This document shows, one piece after another, positions 4,709 through 49,289 of a stretch of DNA of 49,345 nt (positions are counted from its first letter, which is position 1; every line of letters begins with the position of its first letter). The translations under genes were made by a program, and so were the position numbers. The notes beneath the pieces were generated by a model. That model had not been told where the DNA came from. It did not search any database and was given only the letters and a program-made list of their open reading frames with translations. Origin of the DNA: a candidate division KSB1 bacterium (lineage in GTDB: Bacteria; Zhuqueibacterota; Zhuqueibacteria; JANLFK01; Oleimicrobiaceae); the NCBI GenBank assembly GCA_024655945.1, contig JANLFK010000019.1:1-49345 (forward strand). The letters run 5' to 3'.

Positions 4709-4947
<239 letters not shown>

Positions 4948-5057
4948 GTTTACATAGCGAGGACAGGCTCGCGAACACCCGCATCCGCCTGAGGGCTTCG
5001 TCGCTGAACTCAACTTCTCGCAGGCGATGCGCAGGCCGTGAGGCAACGCCGGAGGAG

Positions 5058-5412
5058 ATGGGCATGACGAGACTCAGAACCAAGATCCTCGGAGGCACCG
5101 CGAGCGTCAGGACTAATCTGGCGCCGGGAACAAGAGTAAGGGTGAAGGCTATTCCGGATGAAATGGTAGACTTGGCGGCCGACATTGCTGCCGAGTCCTC
5201 CGTGACCGACACACTTAGACAAATGGGTCTTGACATCAAGAACGCGAAGGCCCTTGATGCCTTGAAGGATTTCGCGCGCCATAGGGAAGGGTTCCATCGA
5301 AGACAAGATTCCTTGGACCGAAACAGTCGTTTCGGCCACTGGCGAGGTCTTTGTCCCCGCAGACTGGCCCCACGGCACAGAGGTAACTCTGCGTATCGAG
5401 GTGCGGACCTGA
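5058..5412 (+). pseudogene. Frameshifted small cassette protein
   Basis: The plus frame from ATG 5058 (SD GGAGGAG just upstream) reads MGMTRLRTKILGGTASVRTN through to ALKDFAR. It then loses protein-like character near 5274, while the adjacent frame continues AIGKGSIEDKIPWTETVVSA through to TLRIEVRT and stops at 5412, seven bases before the attC. The second frame has a stop at 5263-5265 and no start codon of its own, so one protein of about 117 residues has been split by a frameshift in the GCGCGCC stretch at 5274-5280. A skipped extra base restores the frame. I do not recognise the family. The loss could be real or a sequencing error. Confidence 0.55.
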
Positions 5413-5418
5413 CCGCAA

Positions 5419-5478
5419 GCCTAACAATAGCATGCAGCGGACCGCGCTGCTCGCTGCCGCTGAGGCTGAGCGTTAGCC
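5419..5478 (+). other. attC site 4, last site of the array
   Basis: GCCTAAC at 5419-5425 and GTTAGCC at 5472-5478 with inner arms GCAGCGG and CCGCTGAGGCTGAGC. At exactly 60 bp it is a classic '59-base element'. It follows the stop of the last cassette gene by seven bases and ends the recognisable array. Confidence 0.88.
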
Positions 5479-5517
5479 ACCCCCCCTCCCACTGGGCACC
5501 AATCCCACTGCGGCCGG

Positions 5518-6003
5518 TCAGCCGAGCTTGTAGCCGATGCGGCGCAGGAACTCCTTGCGATGTGCAACGTCTTCTGCCGTCTCCACCCCGAGCGGGCTCT
5601 GACCATCAACGACGCCAATTATCCCTCGCCCCTGCGGCGTCTCCACCACCAGAACCTCCACAGGGTTAGCCGTAGCGCAGCAGATGTTGACAATCTCCAT
5701 GACGTCGCGCAGCGCGCGCAGCACGTTGATCGGGTAGGCGTTTCCCAAGAGGAGGACAAACGAGTGCCCTGCGCCAATGGCCAAGGCGTTCTCTTGTGCC
5801 AGTTGCACCAAGTGGTCGTCGGTGCCGCTGGAGCGCACCAGGCGCGGCCCCGATGACTCGCAGAAGGCAAATCCGAACTTGATGTTGGGCACGGAGCAGA
5901 CAAGTGCCTCGTGCACATCCTCGACGGTCTTGATGAAGTGCGACATGCCGATGATGACATTGACCTCATCGGGCTTCTTGACCTGAACAGCCTTGATCTC
6001 CAT
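5518..6003 (-). CDS. Adenosine-specific kinase
   Basis: 161 residues over the full length of the small adenosine-specific kinase family (Adenosine_kin, formerly DUF355). Typical segments are VNVIIGMSHFIKTVEDVHEA, FGFAFCESSGPRLVR, GHSFVLLLGNAYPINVL and VVETPQGRGIIGVVDG. Members known from thermophilic archaea and bacteria are reported to phosphorylate or bind adenosine in the cytoplasm, unrelated to PfkB or eukaryotic adenosine kinases. It is the last gene of a minus-strand run, 29 bp after the upstream membrane-anchored protein. It fits the purine-salvage theme of this window. The end is intact although an integron array lies 40 bp away. Confidence 0.85.
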   Translation of the reverse strand: MEIKAVQVKKPDEVNVIIGMSHFIKTVEDVHEALVCSVPNIKFGFAFCESSGPRLVRSSGTDDHLVQLAQENALAIGAGHSFVLLLGNAYPINVLRALRDVMEIVNICCATANPVEVLVVETPQGRGIIGVVDGQSPLGVETAEDVAHRKEFLRRIGYKLG

Positions 6004-6032
6004 CTCCTACCTCCGCAGGGACGTACCCAGCT

Positions 6033-6962
6033 TTACTCCACGGGGCCCCAGTCCTTGGTCACCTCGCCGATCCACGTCCAGAGGAAGCGACTGGCCAAGG
6101 CGACTGCTGTGGACATCGGTTCGGCGGGAGCGCTCACGGCCGCGCCCGCAAAGGGGATGCCGCTTTCCTGGAAGACCTTCGCCGCAGCCGCCAAGCCCCG
6201 CTCGGTGGAGCCGGGCAACAGGCGCAGACCGTCCTGCGCTCCGTTGGCAAGAACCTCCTGCCAGCTATCGACCAGCGGCGATGAGGCAAACTCCATCTCC
6301 GTGCTCACCCCCACCCGGTCGAGATGCAAGCGGGGCAGGGGATCTGGGGAACCGGCGGCGGTGTACCTCTGCTCGGCCACGAGCAGCTCTCGCAATCTGA
6401 GGTAGCTATCAACCGCCATCGCTAAGAGACGTTGGTTCGACCAGAAGAAACGAGCGGGCCTTGCCTCTTGGAGAGTGGGGTCCCACGTCCACAGCTCTTC
6501 GGGGCGGTACCCATGGCCGTCGAGTCTGCCGCTGTGGCCGATGGCCCAGGCGCTGTTGAGCGCAATGTCGCCTGGGGAGGTGTTAGCCACGTCGCAGAGG
6601 GTCATGGCCAACACCACATCGGGACGCCAACCCTGTGGCCCGGCATGGGCCATGAGCACCGAGCTTGCCGCCACGTTCTCGGTGCCGGGGGGCAGACATT
6701 CCACGATCACCCGGGCAGCTCCGGACCCCTGGCACTCCACCAGATGGAACACCCTGCCCATGGGCGCCTCGTACGTGGAGACCCGGCTCCCCTCGCGGCG
6801 GGCCGTCGCAAGCAACGAATCAAGCATCTGGGGCTCGGTGAGCTGAACTCCAACTACGAGGCGCCGCTCATGGGGCGTTCCTCGCAGCGACAAGAGGAGC
6901 ACCGCCACGAACAGCACAAATGTCCCCACAGGGAAGGCAAACGACTTCTGCTCGCGCCTCAT
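6033..6962 (-). CDS. Membrane-anchored protein of unknown function
   Basis: 309 residues. A single hydrophobic segment (about residues 9-26, FPVGTFVLFVAVLLLSL) after basic residues MRREQK marks a signal anchor; the rest is soluble and would face outside the cytoplasm. I recognise no family. The body has a mixed alpha/beta look, with PDVVLAMTLCDVAN and DGHGYRPEELWTWDPTLQEA as the most distinctive stretches. It lies between the sigma-54 response regulator (90 bp) and the adenosine-specific kinase (29 bp), probably in the same operon. A sensory or periplasmic accessory role is possible, but nothing in the sequence proves one. Confidence 0.6.
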   Translation of the reverse strand: MRREQKSFAFPVGTFVLFVAVLLLSLRGTPHERRLVVGVQLTEPQMLDSLLATARREGSRVSTYEAPMGRVFHLVECQGSGAARVIVECLPPGTENVAASSVLMAHAGPQGWRPDVVLAMTLCDVANTSPGDIALNSAWAIGHSGRLDGHGYRPEELWTWDPTLQEARPARFFWSNQRLLAMAVDSYLRLRELLVAEQRYTAAGSPDPLPRLHLDRVGVSTEMEFASSPLVDSWQEVLANGAQDGLRLLPGSTERGLAAAAKVFQESGIPFAGAAVSAPAEPMSTAVALASRFLWTWIGEVTKDWGPVE

Positions 6963-7052
6963 CCGCTCTTCCTCCCATCATCATCCGCGCAACTTCTGCC
7001 CTTTCCCCGGACTATGGGCTCTGCACTGCAGCTCCGCTTCGAAATTCAAGTT

Positions 7053-42372: not shown

Positions 42373-43455
42373 GTGCCTCGTGCAATGAGCCCCAAAGAGC
42401 GCGTGCTCACCGCCCTGGCCCATCAAGAGCCTGATAGGGTGCCTATCAACTTTGCCGCCAATCCCGGCGTGCAGGCGCGCCTCATGCAGCACTTTGGCCT
42501 GGCCCACGACGACTGGCCGCATCTGCGCGCCGCCTTAGGCGTTGACTTCCAATGGGTCTGGGCCTCGTACATCGGCCCGCGACTCCATCCTGAGGTGCCA
42601 GAGCGCCATGTGGATCCGGAGTGGGGCACGCACACGCGCTTGGTGGAACATCCGGCTGGCGGCTACTGGGACTTTTGCGATTTTCCCCTGCGCGCTGCCG
42701 ACGAGGAAGAAGTGGCGCGCTGGCCGATGCCCTCCTCGGACGACTATGACTACGCGCAGGTGCTCGCGCAGTGTCGCCAGAACAAGGAGTTTTGCCTTTA
42801 CGCGGGCGGTCCTGGGCTGGGCGACATCATCAACAGCACCACCATGCTGCGCGGCATGGAGCAAGCGCTCATCGACTTGGCCACCGACGATCCAGCCGGC
42901 ATGCTGCTCATCGACCGGCGCCTGGAGGTACAGCTGGAAGTCACCCGGCGCACGCTGGAAGCGGCCCGTGGTGAGATCGACTTCTTATGGATCGGGGAAG
43001 ACTTGGGCGGGCAGAATGGCCCGCTGATCAGCGTGGAGCTATTCCGCAAGCAGATTCGCCCGCGACTGCAGCGTTTTGTGGAGCTTGCCCGCGCCTTTGA
43101 CCTTCCGGTGATGATCCACTCCTGCGGCTCCAGTAGCTGGGCCTTCCCCGAGTTCATCGCCATGGGCATCGCCGCCGTGGATACTTTGCAGCCGGAGGCC
43201 AAGGATATGTCCCCCGAGTACCTCAAGGCGCGTTTCGGCAAGGAGCTGGCTTTCCATGGAGCAATCTCCACTGCCGGCCCTGTTGCCCACGGCTCCGTGC
43301 AGGAAGTAATCGCCTACTGTCGCCACGTCCTGGAAGTCATGATGCCCGGCGGCGGCTACTGCTTTGCGCCCGCCCATCAACTGCAGGACAACACGCCGAC
43401 GCAGAACGTGCTGGCCATGTACCAGACCGCCCTCACGGATGGCCGCTACCGCTGA
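42373..43455 (+). CDS. URO-D-family methyltransferase-like protein, second of a pair
   Basis: 360 residues from GTG 42373 (GGAG at 42361-42364); ATG 42385 is an alternative. MSPKERVLTALAHQEPDRVP is the classic opening of this family; the HSCGSSSWAFPEFIAMGIAA motif matches its neighbour, and FDLPVMIHSCG, AFHGAISTAGPV complete the barrel. It differs clearly from gene one, so the pair is not a recent duplication. Such proteins are often paired with corrinoid proteins or glycoside-metabolism genes; no corrinoid protein gene lies in the window. It is 222 bp upstream of the selenium operon, with its own promoter between. Confidence 0.76.
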   Translation: MPRAMSPKERVLTALAHQEPDRVPINFAANPGVQARLMQHFGLAHDDWPHLRAALGVDFQWVWASYIGPRLHPEVPERHVDPEWGTHTRLVEHPAGGYWDFCDFPLRAADEEEVARWPMPSSDDYDYAQVLAQCRQNKEFCLYAGGPGLGDIINSTTMLRGMEQALIDLATDDPAGMLLIDRRLEVQLEVTRRTLEAARGEIDFLWIGEDLGGQNGPLISVELFRKQIRPRLQRFVELARAFDLPVMIHSCGSSSWAFPEFIAMGIAAVDTLQPEAKDMSPEYLKARFGKELAFHGAISTAGPVAHGSVQEVIAYCRHVLEVMMPGGGYCFAPAHQLQDNTPTQNVLAMYQTALTDGRYR

Positions 43456-43487
43456 AACTGCATCGCTCACCCCCAAAAAAAACCTGC

Positions 43488-43516
43488 TTGATTGTCTGAC
43501 CCGAGTTTGCTACAAT
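43488..43516 (+). promoter_or_regulatory. Promoter of the selenium operon
   Basis: TTGATT at 43488-43493, 17-bp spacer, TACAAT at 43511-43516. The leader to GTG 43678 is about 155 nt and holds a possible hairpin GGACC (43545-43549 region) with GGTCC. No open frame with a proper SD is evident in the leader. Confidence 0.65.
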
Positions 43517-43677
43517 ACGGCAGTGCTATGGTCGCACACAAGGACCGCTGCCCGTGGGTCCGCGTTCGCATGCCTCACCATTGGACCTCTCGGGCAAAGC
43601 TGCCTCCGCCGCCTGGAGCCGCATGCGAGGCAGCGCGTACATAGGCTCTTGCCTGCTGACCGGTTAAAGGTGCAAGG

Positions 43678-44841
43678 GTGTCCGAGTACCTCTACCTGGA
43701 CAATGCGGCAACCACCTGGCCGAAGCCGCCGGCCGTGCGTCAGGCCATGGTGCAATTCATGGACAAAGTCGGGGCCAATCCGGGCAGGTCAGGCCACCGG
43801 ATGTCACTGGCCGCGGCACGGCTGCTCTATCGCGGCCGCGAAGAGATTGCCGCCCTGGTGGGGTGCGACGACCCTCTACGTGTCGTCTTTTGCGCCAACG
43901 CCACCGCCGCGCTGAATTTGGCGCTGCACGGCCTGCTCAACCCGGGCGACCACGTGGTATGCACGAGCATGGAGCACAACTCTGTGATGCGACCTTTGCG
44001 CGTCTTAGAGCAAGGTGGCGTGTTGCTGACTGTGGTGCAGTGCTCGGTCACCGGGGAGTTGACGTGCGCCGCCGTCGAGCAGGCCATTACCCCGCGCACC
44101 CGGCTGATCGTGGCCACGCACGCCTCCAACGCGGTGGGCACACTGCTTCCTGTGGATGAGCTCGCCCAACTGGCTACAAAGCGCAACGTCCTCCTCCTGG
44201 TTGACGCCGCTCAGACGCTCGGTGCCATCCCCCTGGATCTGCGGCAGACGCCAATTGATCTATTGGCATTCACCGGGCACAAGGCGCTGTTTGGGCCCAT
44301 GGGCACCGGGGGCCTGGTTATCGGTCCGCGCGTGCCGCTGTCGGCACTGAAGCCGCTTCTGCAGGGCGGCACCGGCAGCCGGTCCGAGGAGGAGGAGCAG
44401 CCAGACTTTCTGCCGGACAAGTACGAAAGTGGCACGCCGAACGTCGTGGGCGTAGCCGGACTTGCCGCCGGGGTACGTTGGCTGCGCCGTCAGGGGGTGG
44501 AGACAATCCGCGCGCGAGAAGAGAAACTCACGGCGCATCTGCTCTCGGGCCTCAAGAATGTTGCGGGCGTCACCATCTACGGGCCGGACAGTGCCGCGCG
44601 CCGCGCACCAGTGGTGCTGTTCAACGTTGAGGGTAAAGACCCCGCCGTTGTTGCCCAGCGTCTGGACCGGCAGTATGGCATCATGTGCCGCCCTGGGCTG
44701 CATTGCGCCCCGCGTGCGCACAGGACCATCGGCACCTTTCCGCAGGGGGCAGTGCGCTTCAGCCTGAGCGCCTTCACCACCCGCCGGCAGATCGAACGCG
44801 CAGTGCAGGCCGTCGCGCGCATCGCTGGGGGAAAGCGATGA
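43678..44841 (+). CDS. Cysteine desulfurase-like PLP enzyme of the selenium operon
   Basis: 387 residues from GTG 43678, SD AAAGGTG. Class V aminotransferase fold with PLP Lys202 in FTGHKALFGPMGTGG, His100 and Asp176/Gln179 around the cofactor, and a reactive Cys343 in PGLHCAPRAHRTIGT. The sequence is the type found next to yedF and selD (TIGR01977-like), proposed to release sulfur or selenium from (seleno)cysteine and pass it to downstream carriers. Its stop overlaps the next gene by 4 nt (ATGA). Confidence 0.88.
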   Translation: MSEYLYLDNAATTWPKPPAVRQAMVQFMDKVGANPGRSGHRMSLAAARLLYRGREEIAALVGCDDPLRVVFCANATAALNLALHGLLNPGDHVVCTSMEHNSVMRPLRVLEQGGVLLTVVQCSVTGELTCAAVEQAITPRTRLIVATHASNAVGTLLPVDELAQLATKRNVLLLVDAAQTLGAIPLDLRQTPIDLLAFTGHKALFGPMGTGGLVIGPRVPLSALKPLLQGGTGSRSEEEEQPDFLPDKYESGTPNVVGVAGLAAGVRWLRRQGVETIRAREEKLTAHLLSGLKNVAGVTIYGPDSAARRAPVVLFNVEGKDPAVVAQRLDRQYGIMCRPGLHCAPRAHRTIGTFPQGAVRFSLSAFTTRRQIERAVQAVARIAGGKR

Positions 44842-45062
44842 AGGAGCGCTATGCTATCCTGCTGGTCCCGTCTATCTCCCACGCCACGCGGGCGGAGGGC
44901 GTATTGAAGGCACATGGCCTGCGCTGCAAACTCATCCCCGTGCCAAGGGAGGTGAGCTCCGACTGCGGTGTTTGCGTGCGGGTGGCAAGGAGCGATTGCG
45001 CCCGCGCCACTCAGCTCCTTGCAGAGGCAGGGGTTACCGTCACGAGCAGACATGACATCTGA
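44838..45062 (+). CDS. DUF3343 putative Se/S carrier protein
   Basis: 74 residues from ATG 44838, coupled to the cysteine desulfurase by ATGA. The short protein has the motif VSSDCGVCVRV, with two Cys in the SSDCG context conserved in DUF3343. Members are small proteins in selenium and sulfur-transfer loci and are thought to carry persulfide or perselenide. Its position between the desulfurase and YedF supports that. Confidence 0.83.
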   Translation: MKERYAILLVPSISHATRAEGVLKAHGLRCKLIPVPREVSSDCGVCVRVARSDCARATQLLAEAGVTVTSRHDI

Positions 45063-45091
45063 CATTGGGCAAAAACATGAGGAAAAGTCGC

Positions 45092-45682
45092 ATGAGCCGC
45101 ATCGTTGATGCACGAGGACTTGCCTGTCCGCAACCGGTCATCCTGACCAGGAAGGCCCTGCAGGAATCTGACGAGCTGGTGGTCATCGTCGACAACGAGA
45201 CTTCGCGCCAGAATGTGAGCCGCATGGCCGAAAAGTCAGGGTACACGGTGCAGAGCGAGACCCGCCCGGATGGCATCTACCTGCACATCACCAAGGGCGG
45301 ACAGCTGGAGGCGCCCGCTAAGGCAGCCGCGGCCAAACCAGCGCAAGGCCCGCTTGTGCTGGCCATCTCCCAGGATCGCATGGGCCACGGCGACCAAGAA
45401 CTCGGCAGCATCCTGATAGGTAGCTTCTTCCACACCTTGAACGAGATGCACCCTCTGCCGCAGACCATCATTTTCTTCAACAGCGGGGTCTACCTGGTGG
45501 TGGAGGGCTCACCGGTTCTGCAAGACCTGCAGGCCTTGCAGGCGCAAGGGGTGCAGATACTCGCTTGCGGCACCTGCTTGGGCCACTTTGGCCTGAAGGA
45601 GAAGGTCGCAGTGGGCGAAGTGTCCAACATGTACACCATCGCCGAGACCCTGTTGGGCGCAGGCAAGGTGGTGAACTTGTAG
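45092..45682 (+). CDS. yedF: YedF, sulfurtransferase-like selenium metabolism protein
   Basis: 196 residues from ATG 45092 (SD AGGAAAAG). N-terminal SirA/TusA domain with DARGLACPQPVILTRKAL (Cys12-Pro-x-Pro), then a DsrE-like domain from about residue 85 (LVLAISQDRMGHGDQELGSI) with a second Cys pair, LACGTCLGHFGLKE. This two-domain form is the selenium-specific YedF of the TIGR03527 type. It probably hands Se from the desulfurase to SelD. It lies 15 bp before selD. Confidence 0.9.
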   Translation: MSRIVDARGLACPQPVILTRKALQESDELVVIVDNETSRQNVSRMAEKSGYTVQSETRPDGIYLHITKGGQLEAPAKAAAAKPAQGPLVLAISQDRMGHGDQELGSILIGSFFHTLNEMHPLPQTIIFFNSGVYLVVEGSPVLQDLQALQAQGVQILACGTCLGHFGLKEKVAVGEVSNMYTIAETLLGAGKVVNL

Positions 45683-45697
45683 CCAAGGAAGCTGACC

Positions 45698-46744
45698 ATG
45701 AGCACGAAGGTGCGGTTGACCGCCCTGACCTCGGCGGCCGGCTGAGCGGCCAAGACGGGTCCCCAGACCCTGGCGCAGGTGCTGCGCCCTCTGCAGGAGC
45801 GCTTCAGAAGCGCCGACCACCCTCAGCTTCTGGTGGGGCTGGAGCTGAGCGACGACGCCGCCGTCTACCAGCTCACCCCGGAGGTGGCGGTCATCCTCAC
45901 GGTGGACTATTTCACGCCCATCGTGGACGACCCGTATGACTATGGCGCCATCGCCGCCGCCAATGCGCTGAGCGACGTCTACGCCATGGGGGGCGAAGTG
46001 ACCCTGGCCCTCAACGTCTGCTGTTTTCCCCCTGATCTGCCGGCAGAGGTGGTCACTGAGATTCTCAAGGGCGGAGCCGATAAAGTGGCCGAAGCGGGGG
46101 CAGTCATCGCCGGCGGCCACACGGTGGACGACAAGGAGCCGAAATACGGACTTGCCGTGCTCGGACTGGTCCATCCGAAGCGCATCCTCAGCAAGGCCGG
46201 CGTCCGACCAGGCGACGTGCTCTGTCTCACCAAGCGACTCGGCGTTGGCATGGTGACCACCGCCGCAAAAGGGGACGTCGCCGACCCCGCGCACATAGCC
46301 TTAGCCGTGGCACAAATGAAGCTCCTCAACCGCACTGCTGTGCGCATCGCCGTGCGTGCTGGCGCCCATGCCTGTACCGACGTAACTGGGTTCTCGCTCC
46401 TTGGCCATGCGTGTGAGATGGCCGAAAAGAGCCGCGTACGGCTCCGCTTCTCTCTGCAGGCACTCCCCTTCCTCGACGGCGCCAGGCAATATGCTGAGGC
46501 GTGGCTCTTCCCGGGGGGCTCCTGTCGCAACCGGGATTGCTATGGGCCGCAGGTGACCTTTGCGTCTGGCATCGCCGAAGAGACTCAGCTGCTCCTTTTC
46601 ACGCCGGAGACGTCCGGGGGGCTGCTGGTCGCGGTGCCGCACGAGCAGGCAGAGGAGTTGGCGCGAATGTGCCACGAGCACGGCCAAGACTGCTGGCAAG
46701 TCGGGGAGGTGGTCCAAGGGGCCGGCGTCGAGGTGGCGGGCTAA
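45698..46744 (+). CDS. selD: Selenide, water dikinase SelD, a selenoprotein (Sec16 encoded by UGA)
   Basis: 348 residues including selenocysteine. From ATG 45698 the frame reads MSTKVRLTALTSAAG, then UGA at 45743-45745, then AAKTGPQTLAQVLRPL, in frame with the rest of SelD to TAA 46744. The UGA falls exactly where E. coli SelD has Cys17 (GCGCK); here the motif is G-U-A-A-K with Lys19 as the ATP-binding Lys. The body has DDAAVYQLTPEVAVILTVDY, DVYAMGGEVTLALNV and AGGHTVDDKEPKYGLAVLG, all SelD signatures. SelD makes selenophosphate for Sec-tRNA and selenouridine. A conventional gene finder would start at 45779 and lose the catalytic loop. SelA, SelB and tRNA-Sec must exist elsewhere. Confidence 0.9.
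45743..45774 (+). promoter_or_regulatory. Candidate bacterial SECIS element of selD
   Basis: Directly after the UGA a hairpin can form: GCCA (45749-45752) with TGGC (45771-45774), then a bulge AGAC, and GGGTC (45757-45761) with GACCC (45766-45770) around the loop CCCA. The apical part lies about 11-20 nt past the UGA, the distance range of bacterial SECIS. The exact loop G requirement is not certain. Confidence 0.5.
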
Positions 46745-46863
46745 AGGCGCGGGCCAATCCAGCAGCAAAGCGGGCCCACCACCCCCTGGAACTGGCCTGG
46801 TCGGCGCTCTGGCTTCGGAGCATTCGTACAATCGGATAGCGAAAAATGTGCGGAGGAACAGCC

Positions 46864-49106
46864 ATGAAAAGAATCACGCGCTGCCTCATGGTTGCCGCCT
46901 TAGCGACGGCAATCGGAACTGTTTCCCTCTTAGCTGCCGAGTTGACCATCCGCTCGGGCCTGGCAGACTACCAGGCCTATCAACGTGACAGCGACGGCAA
47001 TGCTTCTGTGTCATTTGCCGGAACAGTTGCCGATGGGGCGACCGGCAGAGTGGAGTGTATGGTGATTGCCCAGCGCTCAGGGGCAACGCTCCGCGACTGG
47101 GAGGAGGTAGGCGCCTGCCGTCGCGGACAGGTAGAAGGCACGATAAGGTCACTTCCGACCGGCGGCCCGTATGCCATCCTCCTGCGCGTGGTGGCCCCGA
47201 GTGGCAAGGTCATAGCCGGCGCCTAGGTACGCCACGTGTTGGTCGGCGACCTGTAGCTCCTCGCCGGGCAGTCGAACATGCAGGGGATCGGCGACCTGCG
47301 CGAGGCTGAGGACCCCAGCATTTCGGTGAACTGCTACGGCTTTGACGAAAAGTGGGGCATCGCTGCTGATCCGTTGCACTGGCTTTTGGACTCGCCGGAC
47401 CCGGTGCACCACGGCGGGCGTACGCCCTCCGAGCTTGCCAAGGCGCGCGCCGCTGCCAAGCGCGACGCACAGACGGGCGCTGGCCTGGGCTTGCCATTTG
47501 CCAAAGAGCTGGTGGCCCGCACCGGCGTGCCCATCGGTTTGGTGCCTTGCGCCCATGGAGGCACCTCCATGGAGCAGTGGGACCCTGCCAAACGCGATCA
47601 GGGTGGTGCCTCCCTCTACGGCTCCATGTACCGGCGCTTCAAGGCAGTGGGCCGCAAGCTGCGGGGCGTGCCGTGCTATCAAGGGGAGTCGGATGCAAAT
47701 CAGACTGCCGCCCGCCTGTTCCGCGAGCGATTCCTGGCCTTTGTGGCCGCGGTGCGCCGCGATTTTGGCAACCCAGAGCTCCCCTTTTACTACGTGCAAC
47801 TGGGACGGTACGTGACCGCCAACGAGAACCCCTATTGGAATGTCGTCCGCGAGGAGCAAAGGCTCTGTGCAGTTCAACTCACGCACGCCGGCATGGTGGC
47901 CAGCATTGACCTGCCCCTTGATGACCCCATCCACGTCAGCACTGCCGGGCACAAGCGCCTGGGCAGACGTCTGGCCCTCCTGGTGCTGCGCGATCTGTTT
48001 GGATGTCGCGACATCTGGCCCGGACTCCAACTGGCGGACATTTCCATCGTGCCCTTCCGCTACCCCTGCTACCGATTGCACTTTGTGGGAGCAAATGGTC
48101 GACTGTGCCGCTCCACCCCGCCTATGGGCTTTTCCATCCGGAGCTCTGAGGGGGAGGACCTGCGCCTCATCTACAAATTGGAGGCATCGTCCTCAGAACC
48201 CTCTATTGACCTGTACTTGCGGCAGGCGCGGCCACCGGACGCCTACCTGTGGTACGGGTGGGGCCTCGACCCGCACTGCACGGTGACCGACGAGCTCGAC
48301 ATGGCACTGCCCGCGTTCGGGCCAGTAGAGCTGAGCCAGGTTACCCTGGAGACCCTTGTCAAGCGGGCGGAAGTCTCTCCCGCCGACCCTTCGCTTGCGG
48401 CCATGCTGCCCCAGGTAGTGAGCCTGGCCCGCAACGACAAACAGCGCATCCACCCCCTGGTACAGGCTGTGGTAAAAGCCTCCCCGCCGGAGCTGCGGCT
48501 TGTCAGGCAGCCCTTTGTCTTTGCACTCGGCGATCTCTCCGCCTGGGACCTCTACCTTGCCCAGGCGCGTTCCGCCTCCCTTGCCCGCCGTAAGGAGCTG
48601 GCCAGGACCTGGACCACCAGTGCCCACTTTCCTGGTCTTTCTTGCCGGTTCACCACCAAGTGGCAGGTGGTGGGGCCATTCGACAATGGCGACGATGCAG
48701 GTCTTGACCGCCCCTACGGCCCAGAACGTAGCTCCTACGAGGACGGTCTCGGTGGAACCGTGGCGTGGCAGCCGGCCGAAGCCAACCGCGAAGGCTTCTT
48801 GGACCTGACTGCCTGTTTTGCGGTCAAGGAGAACGCGGTGGCCTATGCCTTTGCGGAAGTGCAAGCCACCGAGGAGCTGGAAACGCTGCTCCTTTTGGGG
48901 AGCGACGATGGCGTGGCCCTATCGGTAAACGGCGAACTTGTGCACAGGGAGCATGTCCACCGGGCAGCCGCGCCGGCGCAGGACCTGTTCGTGGTGCGGC
49001 TCAGACGCGGGGTGAACATGGTCTTGGCCAAAGTGGAACAGGCCGGGGGGATTGGGGGCTTTACCTGCACCTGGTGGACCCTCGCGCCGCGCTGCGCTAT
49101 GAGTAA
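46864..49106 (+). pseudogene. Sialate O-acetylesterase-like (SASA/GDSL) exported protein, broken by two amber codons and a frameshift
   Basis: ATG 46864 (SD GGAGG) starts a signal peptide MKRITRCLMVAALATAIGTV. The same frame holds TAG at 47224-47226 and 47254-47256, between SGKVIAGA and VRHVLVGDL and then LLAGQSNMQGIGD; the second TAG is where relatives have the Trp of GDxWL. Downstream the SASA catalytic motifs are intact: AGQSNMQG, CAHGGTSMEQWDP, CYQGESDANQT, and the catalytic pair region DDPIHVSTAGH. Near the end a G is missing in the G run 49045-49050; the correct frame gives DWGLYLHLVDPRAALRYE and TAA 49104-49106. Such enzymes remove acetyl groups from sialic acid or plant polysaccharides. 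Confidence 0.78.
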
Positions 49107-49214
49107 CCGCGGGCGGGGAGAAGGCTGTTCGTGCGGCAGTCGCGTGGCGATCTCTGGCCCTCTGCGCACCCACAGGCGGCTTCATGCGGTGGTCGCGGCG
49201 GCTGCTTCCCGGGC

Positions 49215-49289
49215 ACCTCCGGGAGGTTGATCCGCCAGGCCTACTTGACCGCATGGGCTTTCTCCGAGCCGCTACAACCTCCCGGAGGT
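49215..49289. repeat. 15-bp perfect inverted repeat
   Basis: ACCTCCGGGAGGTTG at 49215-49229 and CAACCTCCCGGAGGT at 49275-49289 are perfect reverse complements, 45 bp apart. Each arm is itself nearly palindromic (CCTCCGGGAGG; CCTCCCGGAGG). It may be an operator, a bidirectional terminator for the esterase gene, or the edge of a small repetitive element. Confidence 0.7.

Follow-up and report, generated by a model that had tools for sequence, protein, structure and literature searches.

Introduction

Selenocysteine (Sec) was present in 19% of the SelDs of a 223-genome survey, always at the position of the UGA codon described here (PMC4561486). The Sec-SelDs of bacteria and archaea, such as that of Aquifex aeolicus (2yye/2zod), carry a UxxK motif, and the protein considered in this work has the same site, family and motifs. 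The gene families that surround it have also been seen together, since they are clustered in Enterococcus faecalis (EF_2568 (SclA)-YedF-SelD) and in Slackia (Sec lyase-DUF3343-YedF) (PMC2276186, PMC5322559, PMC13188914). Earlier surveys recorded fusions of NifS with SelD in two protists and in 2 of 8263 prokaryotic genomes, one of which is that of Geobacter sp. FRC-32 (PMC2398784, PMC4561486). Lastly, Asgard archaea may carry two or more selD genes, and several selD genes per genome are described as rare outside this group (PMC11227280).

We analysed a window of 49,345 nucleotides, which is contig C19 (JANLFK010000019.1) in the genome of a candidate division KSB1 bacterium (3.94 Mb, 26 contigs, 97.7% complete). 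Compared with the Aquifex aeolicus type, the predicted Sec-SelD of this window shows no essential difference; here it belongs to a putative operon with nifS-like, DUF3343 and yedF genes and coexists with a Cys SelD. Unlike in the Enterococcus and Slackia clusters, SelD is a predicted selenoprotein and the last gene, and YqeC, a marker of selenium-dependent molybdenum hydroxylases (SDMH), was not found. The second SelD of the genome resembles the Geobacter sp. FRC-32 fusion in its N-terminal cysteine desulfurase. However, the Geobacter protein has Sec, whereas the fusion described here has Cys, occurs in 31 of 82 genomes of the phylum and is paired with a separate Sec-SelD. As in Asgard archaea, there is more than one selD per genome, but here the host is bacterial and the Cys NifS fusion and the stand-alone Sec-SelD are of different origin. 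Sec-SelD is a known and common selenoprotein form, and the joint occurrence of the cluster's gene families is also established; the Cys-fusion/Sec-SelD pairing across the phylum is the less expected part.

A gene unit ending in selD

The earlier note described a promoter, a cysteine desulfurase, DUF3343, YedF and SelD as one unit, and both the order and the coordinates were borne out by open reading frames and profile searches (Table 1). Each of the four genes exceeds a family cut-off: the nifS-like gene with TIGR01977 (447.2 bits, cut-off 377), the DUF3343 gene with PF11823 (Se_S_carrier; 71.4 bits, gathering cut-off 25), yedF with TIGR03527 (216.7 bits, cut-off 110) and selD with TIGR00476 (378.9 bits, cut-off 125). 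The SclA profile NF040779 gave 384.3 bits for the nifS-like gene, which is below its curated cut-off of 525. In yedF, an alternative start at ATG 45092, which has GAGGAAAA directly upstream as read from the sequence, is perhaps likelier than the start listed. The genes overlap or stand within about 15 nt of one another, and the four are presumably co-transcribed. The promoter-like site is the sole one within 43400-46900, where 0.4 would be expected by shuffling, and it is kept in both congeners. The stretch from the promoter to nifS diverged among the three congeners, and the idea of a conserved regulatory leader was dropped. With a leader that diverges and no terminator detected for the nifS-like/DUF3343/yedF/selD unit, the limits of the operon are only predicted. 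Within the window, an Rfam search gave no RNA family and ARAGORN gave no tRNA gene.

Table 1. Features of the gene unit and the second SelD (window positions, except for the fusion)
Feature	Location	Strand	Remarks
Sigma-70-like promoter (predicted)	43488..43516	+	TTGATT - 17 nt - TACAAT, TG preceding the -10 box
nifS/sufS-like cysteine desulfurase, candidate selenocysteine lyase, SclA-like	43678..44841	+	TIGR01977 EF2568 family
DUF3343 / PF11823, putative Se/S carrier	44838..45062	+	start overlaps the nifS stop (ATGA)
yedF (TusA + DsrE domains)	45077..45682	+	TIGR03527, PF01206, PF02635
selD, selenide water dikinase	45698..46744	+	348 aa, predicted Sec at residue 16
In-frame UGA, predicted to be read as selenocysteine	45743..45745	+	TGA conserved across congeners, class and other loci
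Accessory hairpin 1	45757..45770	+	GGGUC-CCCA-GACCC, weaker support
SECIS hairpin 2	45772..45788	+	GGCGCAG-GUG-CUGCGCC, loop starts 34 nt after UGA
NifS-SelD fusion, second SelD	G000:C3:59783-61996 (L053:4784-6997)		738 aa, no stops, GLGCACK active site

The UGA codon of selD and its SECIS element

That the in-frame UGA stands at the catalytic Cys position, as had been claimed, is upheld by its conservation and by an alignment to E. coli SelD (3u0o), in which the UGA meets the catalytic Cys and the conserved Lys follows three residues later. Both congeners share this TGA site, and so do another 20 genomes of the class that were checked and 73 Sec-SelD loci besides these. In both other genomes of the genus the whole operon is kept together with the UGA, SelD identity being 89% and 75%. 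By our own count, the SelD matches of 43 of 60 class genomes contain one in-frame TGA; it falls exactly at the catalytic motif in the 23 class loci checked, genus included, and also, with few exceptions, in the closest named relatives outside the class. The table-11 reading frame of SelD begins at GTG 45779, and a plain ORF caller consequently drops exactly 27 codons, catalytic site included, as the earlier note had stated; gene models that lose the catalytic N-terminus of SelD can be corrected in this way. The absence of selB or selC from the genome had been named as evidence against Sec insertion, and we found selA (contig C15), selB and selC. The selC gene adjoins selB on contig C1, scores 75.2 bits (cut-off 47) and is called tRNA-Sec with anticodon tca by ARAGORN.

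We then looked at the stretch following the UGA. In bacterial SECIS elements, according to the rules of bSECISearch, the loop lies about 16-37 nt after the UGA and has a G in its first two positions; the GUG loop of hairpin 2 agrees with this. Of the 15 codons that directly follow the UGA, 12 are shared by all three congeners, compared with 37% of comparable selD codons (p = 6e-4), and the three changed bases all lie outside the stems. Hairpin 2 is also present, in the same place, in Acidobacteriota, Chloroflexota, Planctomycetota and others. The less biased test used 76 Sec-SelD loci not selected for the hairpin: pairing was 10.7 SD above column-wise synonymous-codon shuffles for hairpin 2 (0 of 1000 as high) and 3.5 SD above for hairpin 1, kinship among the sequences inflating such covariation figures. 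In a subset of 43 sequences selected for having the hairpin, 96% of the cells of hairpin 2 are paired, with two-sided changes at all 7 pairs. For hairpin 1, 72.6% of the cells are paired. In sliding controls, the share of paired cells dropped to at most 50%, down from 86%. Taken alone, the window sequence has a folding energy that is no more than suggestive, since about 8% of synonymous randomisations are equally stable. Hairpin 1 was rejected as the main SECIS because it lacks a G at the loop start and has weaker support; it occupies the site of the best hairpin in several class relatives. The covariation and the codons fixed in the genus thus show that the candidate SECIS proposed just after the UGA is real. 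SelD is almost certainly a selenoprotein, and we hold it very probable that the operon, with its Sec-containing SelD and SECIS, is genuine.

A second SelD with a catalytic Cys

In the second SelD, a NifS/IscS-type desulfurase is followed by SelD in one open frame. The SelD half reaches 399.1 bits with TIGR00476 (cut-off 125), above the 379 of the Sec-SelD, and the NifS half 500.2 bits with TIGR03402, just under the cut-off of 530.75. The pairing of Cys fusion and Sec-SelD is found in all three genomes of the genus. In the phylum, 33 matches exceeded the limit and two of them cover only the NifS part, which leaves 31 full-length or nearly full-length fusions. NifS-SelD fusions, so far recorded in a handful of genomes, are therefore common within a single phylum of bacteria. 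By our own count, the first 60 relatives comprise 18 with both types, 25 with a Sec-SelD match only and 10 with the fusion only. Five of these ten were covered by the selB search and all five have selB, so that the fusion probably supplies their selenophosphate. Outside the phylum, a NifS-SelD fusion with an in-frame UGA, similar to that of Geobacter FRC-32, was observed in Clostridia bacterium SV3-B14.1 (Bacillota; L162, about 4843-6987).

Origin of the operon

A quick tree of 85 SelD domains, with SH-aLRT as its only support measure and with open forks, places the Sec-SelD of the genus within a set from Chloroflexota, Acidobacteriota, Fibrobacterota, Planctomycetota, Spirochaetota and UASB270 (SH-aLRT 96 for 15 rows, 100 for 38). 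Both the class fusions and the other Sec-SelDs of the class branch apart from it, and the NifS-SelD fusion of the genome groups with the class fusions (SH-aLRT 100). A nifS-DUF3343-(yedF)-selD cluster accompanies SelD in UASB270, Chitinivibrionales, Chloroflexota and Phycisphaerae, and is absent beside SelD in the other class members examined. Since the operon SelD groups with other phyla, away from the Sec-SelDs of the class, horizontal transfer is suggested; acquisition of the operon in this way is probably the simplest reading, in a quick tree that names no donor lineage.

Proposed selenium flow and roles of the two SelDs

According to the families present, selenium would be released by the NifS-like enzyme, which is probably a desulfurase or selenocysteine lyase, and would be carried or reduced by DUF3343 and YedF; SelD would then make selenophosphate using ATP. 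SelA would charge tRNA-Sec with selenophosphate, and SelB together with the SECIS would bring Sec to the selD UGA. Full-length SelD would thus be made only when Sec-tRNA is available, its output being gated by Sec-tRNA. The earlier note deduced from this that the supply of selenophosphate is self-dependent. This claim is not supported, since the same genome has the Cys-type NifS-SelD fusion, and with a Cys-based second SelD the selenium supply need not depend on itself. The loop would be left unclosed, as the fusion could give starter selenophosphate before any selenium has been incorporated; the acquired operon with the Sec-SelD would add to this supply when selenium is present. We tentatively propose a two-stage circuit, a possibility to which we give somewhat less than even weight, in which the vertically inherited Cys fusion starts selenophosphate synthesis and the acquired operon amplifies it. 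If true, this positive feedback, gated by selenium, would overcome the start-up problem that arises when SelD is itself a selenoprotein. It may also be that the fusion has a specialised function instead of acting as a starter. Cells that naturally hold both a Cys- and a Sec-SelD make the start-up question testable.

Alternatively, the cell could rely on the Sec-SelD alone, the fusion being inactive or serving a purpose other than Sec. The 25 relatives of 60 that have a Sec-SelD match without a detected fusion indicate that Sec-SelD alone may suffice, and in these, subject to genome completeness, self-dependence may hold. In addition, NCBIfam TIGR04369 is an oxidoreductase/SelD-related fusion family named as not SelD; the fusion of this genome is far below its cut-off (156 against 700 bits). 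However, the fusion retains the catalytic Cys, the Lys and the SelD motifs, it outscores the Sec-SelD with TIGR00476, and the five fusion-only relatives covered by the selB search have selB, so that we consider a sole role of the Sec-SelD rather unlikely. It is more improbable still that the operon chiefly serves 2-selenouridine in tRNA or selenium-dependent molybdenum hydroxylases instead of Sec. The EF2568/YedF/SelD cluster was indeed first noted next to molybdenum hydroxylase genes in Enterococcus (PMC2276186), but the full Sec machinery is present here and the markers of both other traits are missing: in this 97.7% complete genome neither mnmH (MnmH, TIGR03167; one control genome over the cut-off) nor yqeC (YqeC, TIGR03172; working controls, and the sole SDMH marker tested) was found.

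A sequencing error or nonsense mutation at the selD UGA, with SelD starting at GTG 45779, has hardly any likelihood in our view. The assembly does hold other premature stops at conserved sense codons, namely two TAG codons in the gene that follows selD, and a UGA that stands in place of a Trp codon in a NuoF/HydB-like gene. All of these fit C:G to T:A changes, however, which a change from Cys to UGA does not, and the selD UGA, together with a covarying SECIS, has been conserved not only in both congeners but well outside the genus. Moreover, a start at 45779 would delete the catalytic residue and the Lys. Sec insertion at the selD UGA is thus the reading that we retain.

Other UGA codons and premature stops in the genome

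The gene downstream of selD (46846-49230) is sialate O-acetylesterase-like by its AGQSNM motif and has in-frame TAG codons at 47224-47226 and 47254-47256, where the congener G001 has Gln and Trp. Both changes are of the C:G to T:A kind and probably reflect nonsense mutations or errors of the consensus. The NuoF/HydB-like gene (L172:7531-9456, minus strand) has a UGA at L172:8850 (FPTYRK-UGA-EICRN), which was rejected as a Sec site, as solved relatives have Trp there; an assembly error or a nonsense change of TGG to TGA is the probable cause, a type of mutation shared with the esterase-like gene.

The earlier note had suggested a search for further UGA-containing genes, and in the limited set of genome stretches and families that we scanned it yielded HdrA2 and a HycE-like hydrogenase. 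The matches of this genome to FdhA (TIGR01591), peroxiredoxin-type (PF00578) and FlpD/MvhD (PF02662) profiles showed no internal UGA, and the GrdB/PrdB profile (PF07355) matched neither the genome nor the controls. As HdrA2 and the HycE-like gene are also UGA-recoded, SelD would not be the sole selenoprotein and the Sec machinery would have other targets. HdrA2 (L171:6615-9140, plus strand) has its UGA at L171:7290, within PTMDCAIUILGPKM, and a perfect hairpin (GGAUGUC-GGUC-GACAUCC) lies downstream. The HdrA family is known to include selenoproteins, and a UGA in the CxxU motif, as seen here, is known for it.

The second gene encodes a formate-hydrogenlyase-type [NiFe] hydrogenase large subunit, HycE-like, with 7z0s_E as the closest solved chain (L173:671-2440, minus strand). 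In known [NiFeSe] hydrogenases, Sec belongs to a UxxC motif, and these enzymes are said to be restricted to sulfate reducers and methanogens (PMC13188914), and in the literature we found no report of Sec at the position seen here. In the N-terminal metal-binding motif (ERICGIUGTVHS), the UGA (L173:1648, that is G000:C1:137647) replaces the second Cys, and the C-terminal DPCFSC is intact. This is possibly a more novel finding than that of SelD. The UGA occurs at the same site in 15 class genomes and is followed by a strongly conserved hairpin of the ACAGUAC-GG-loop-GUACUGU type.
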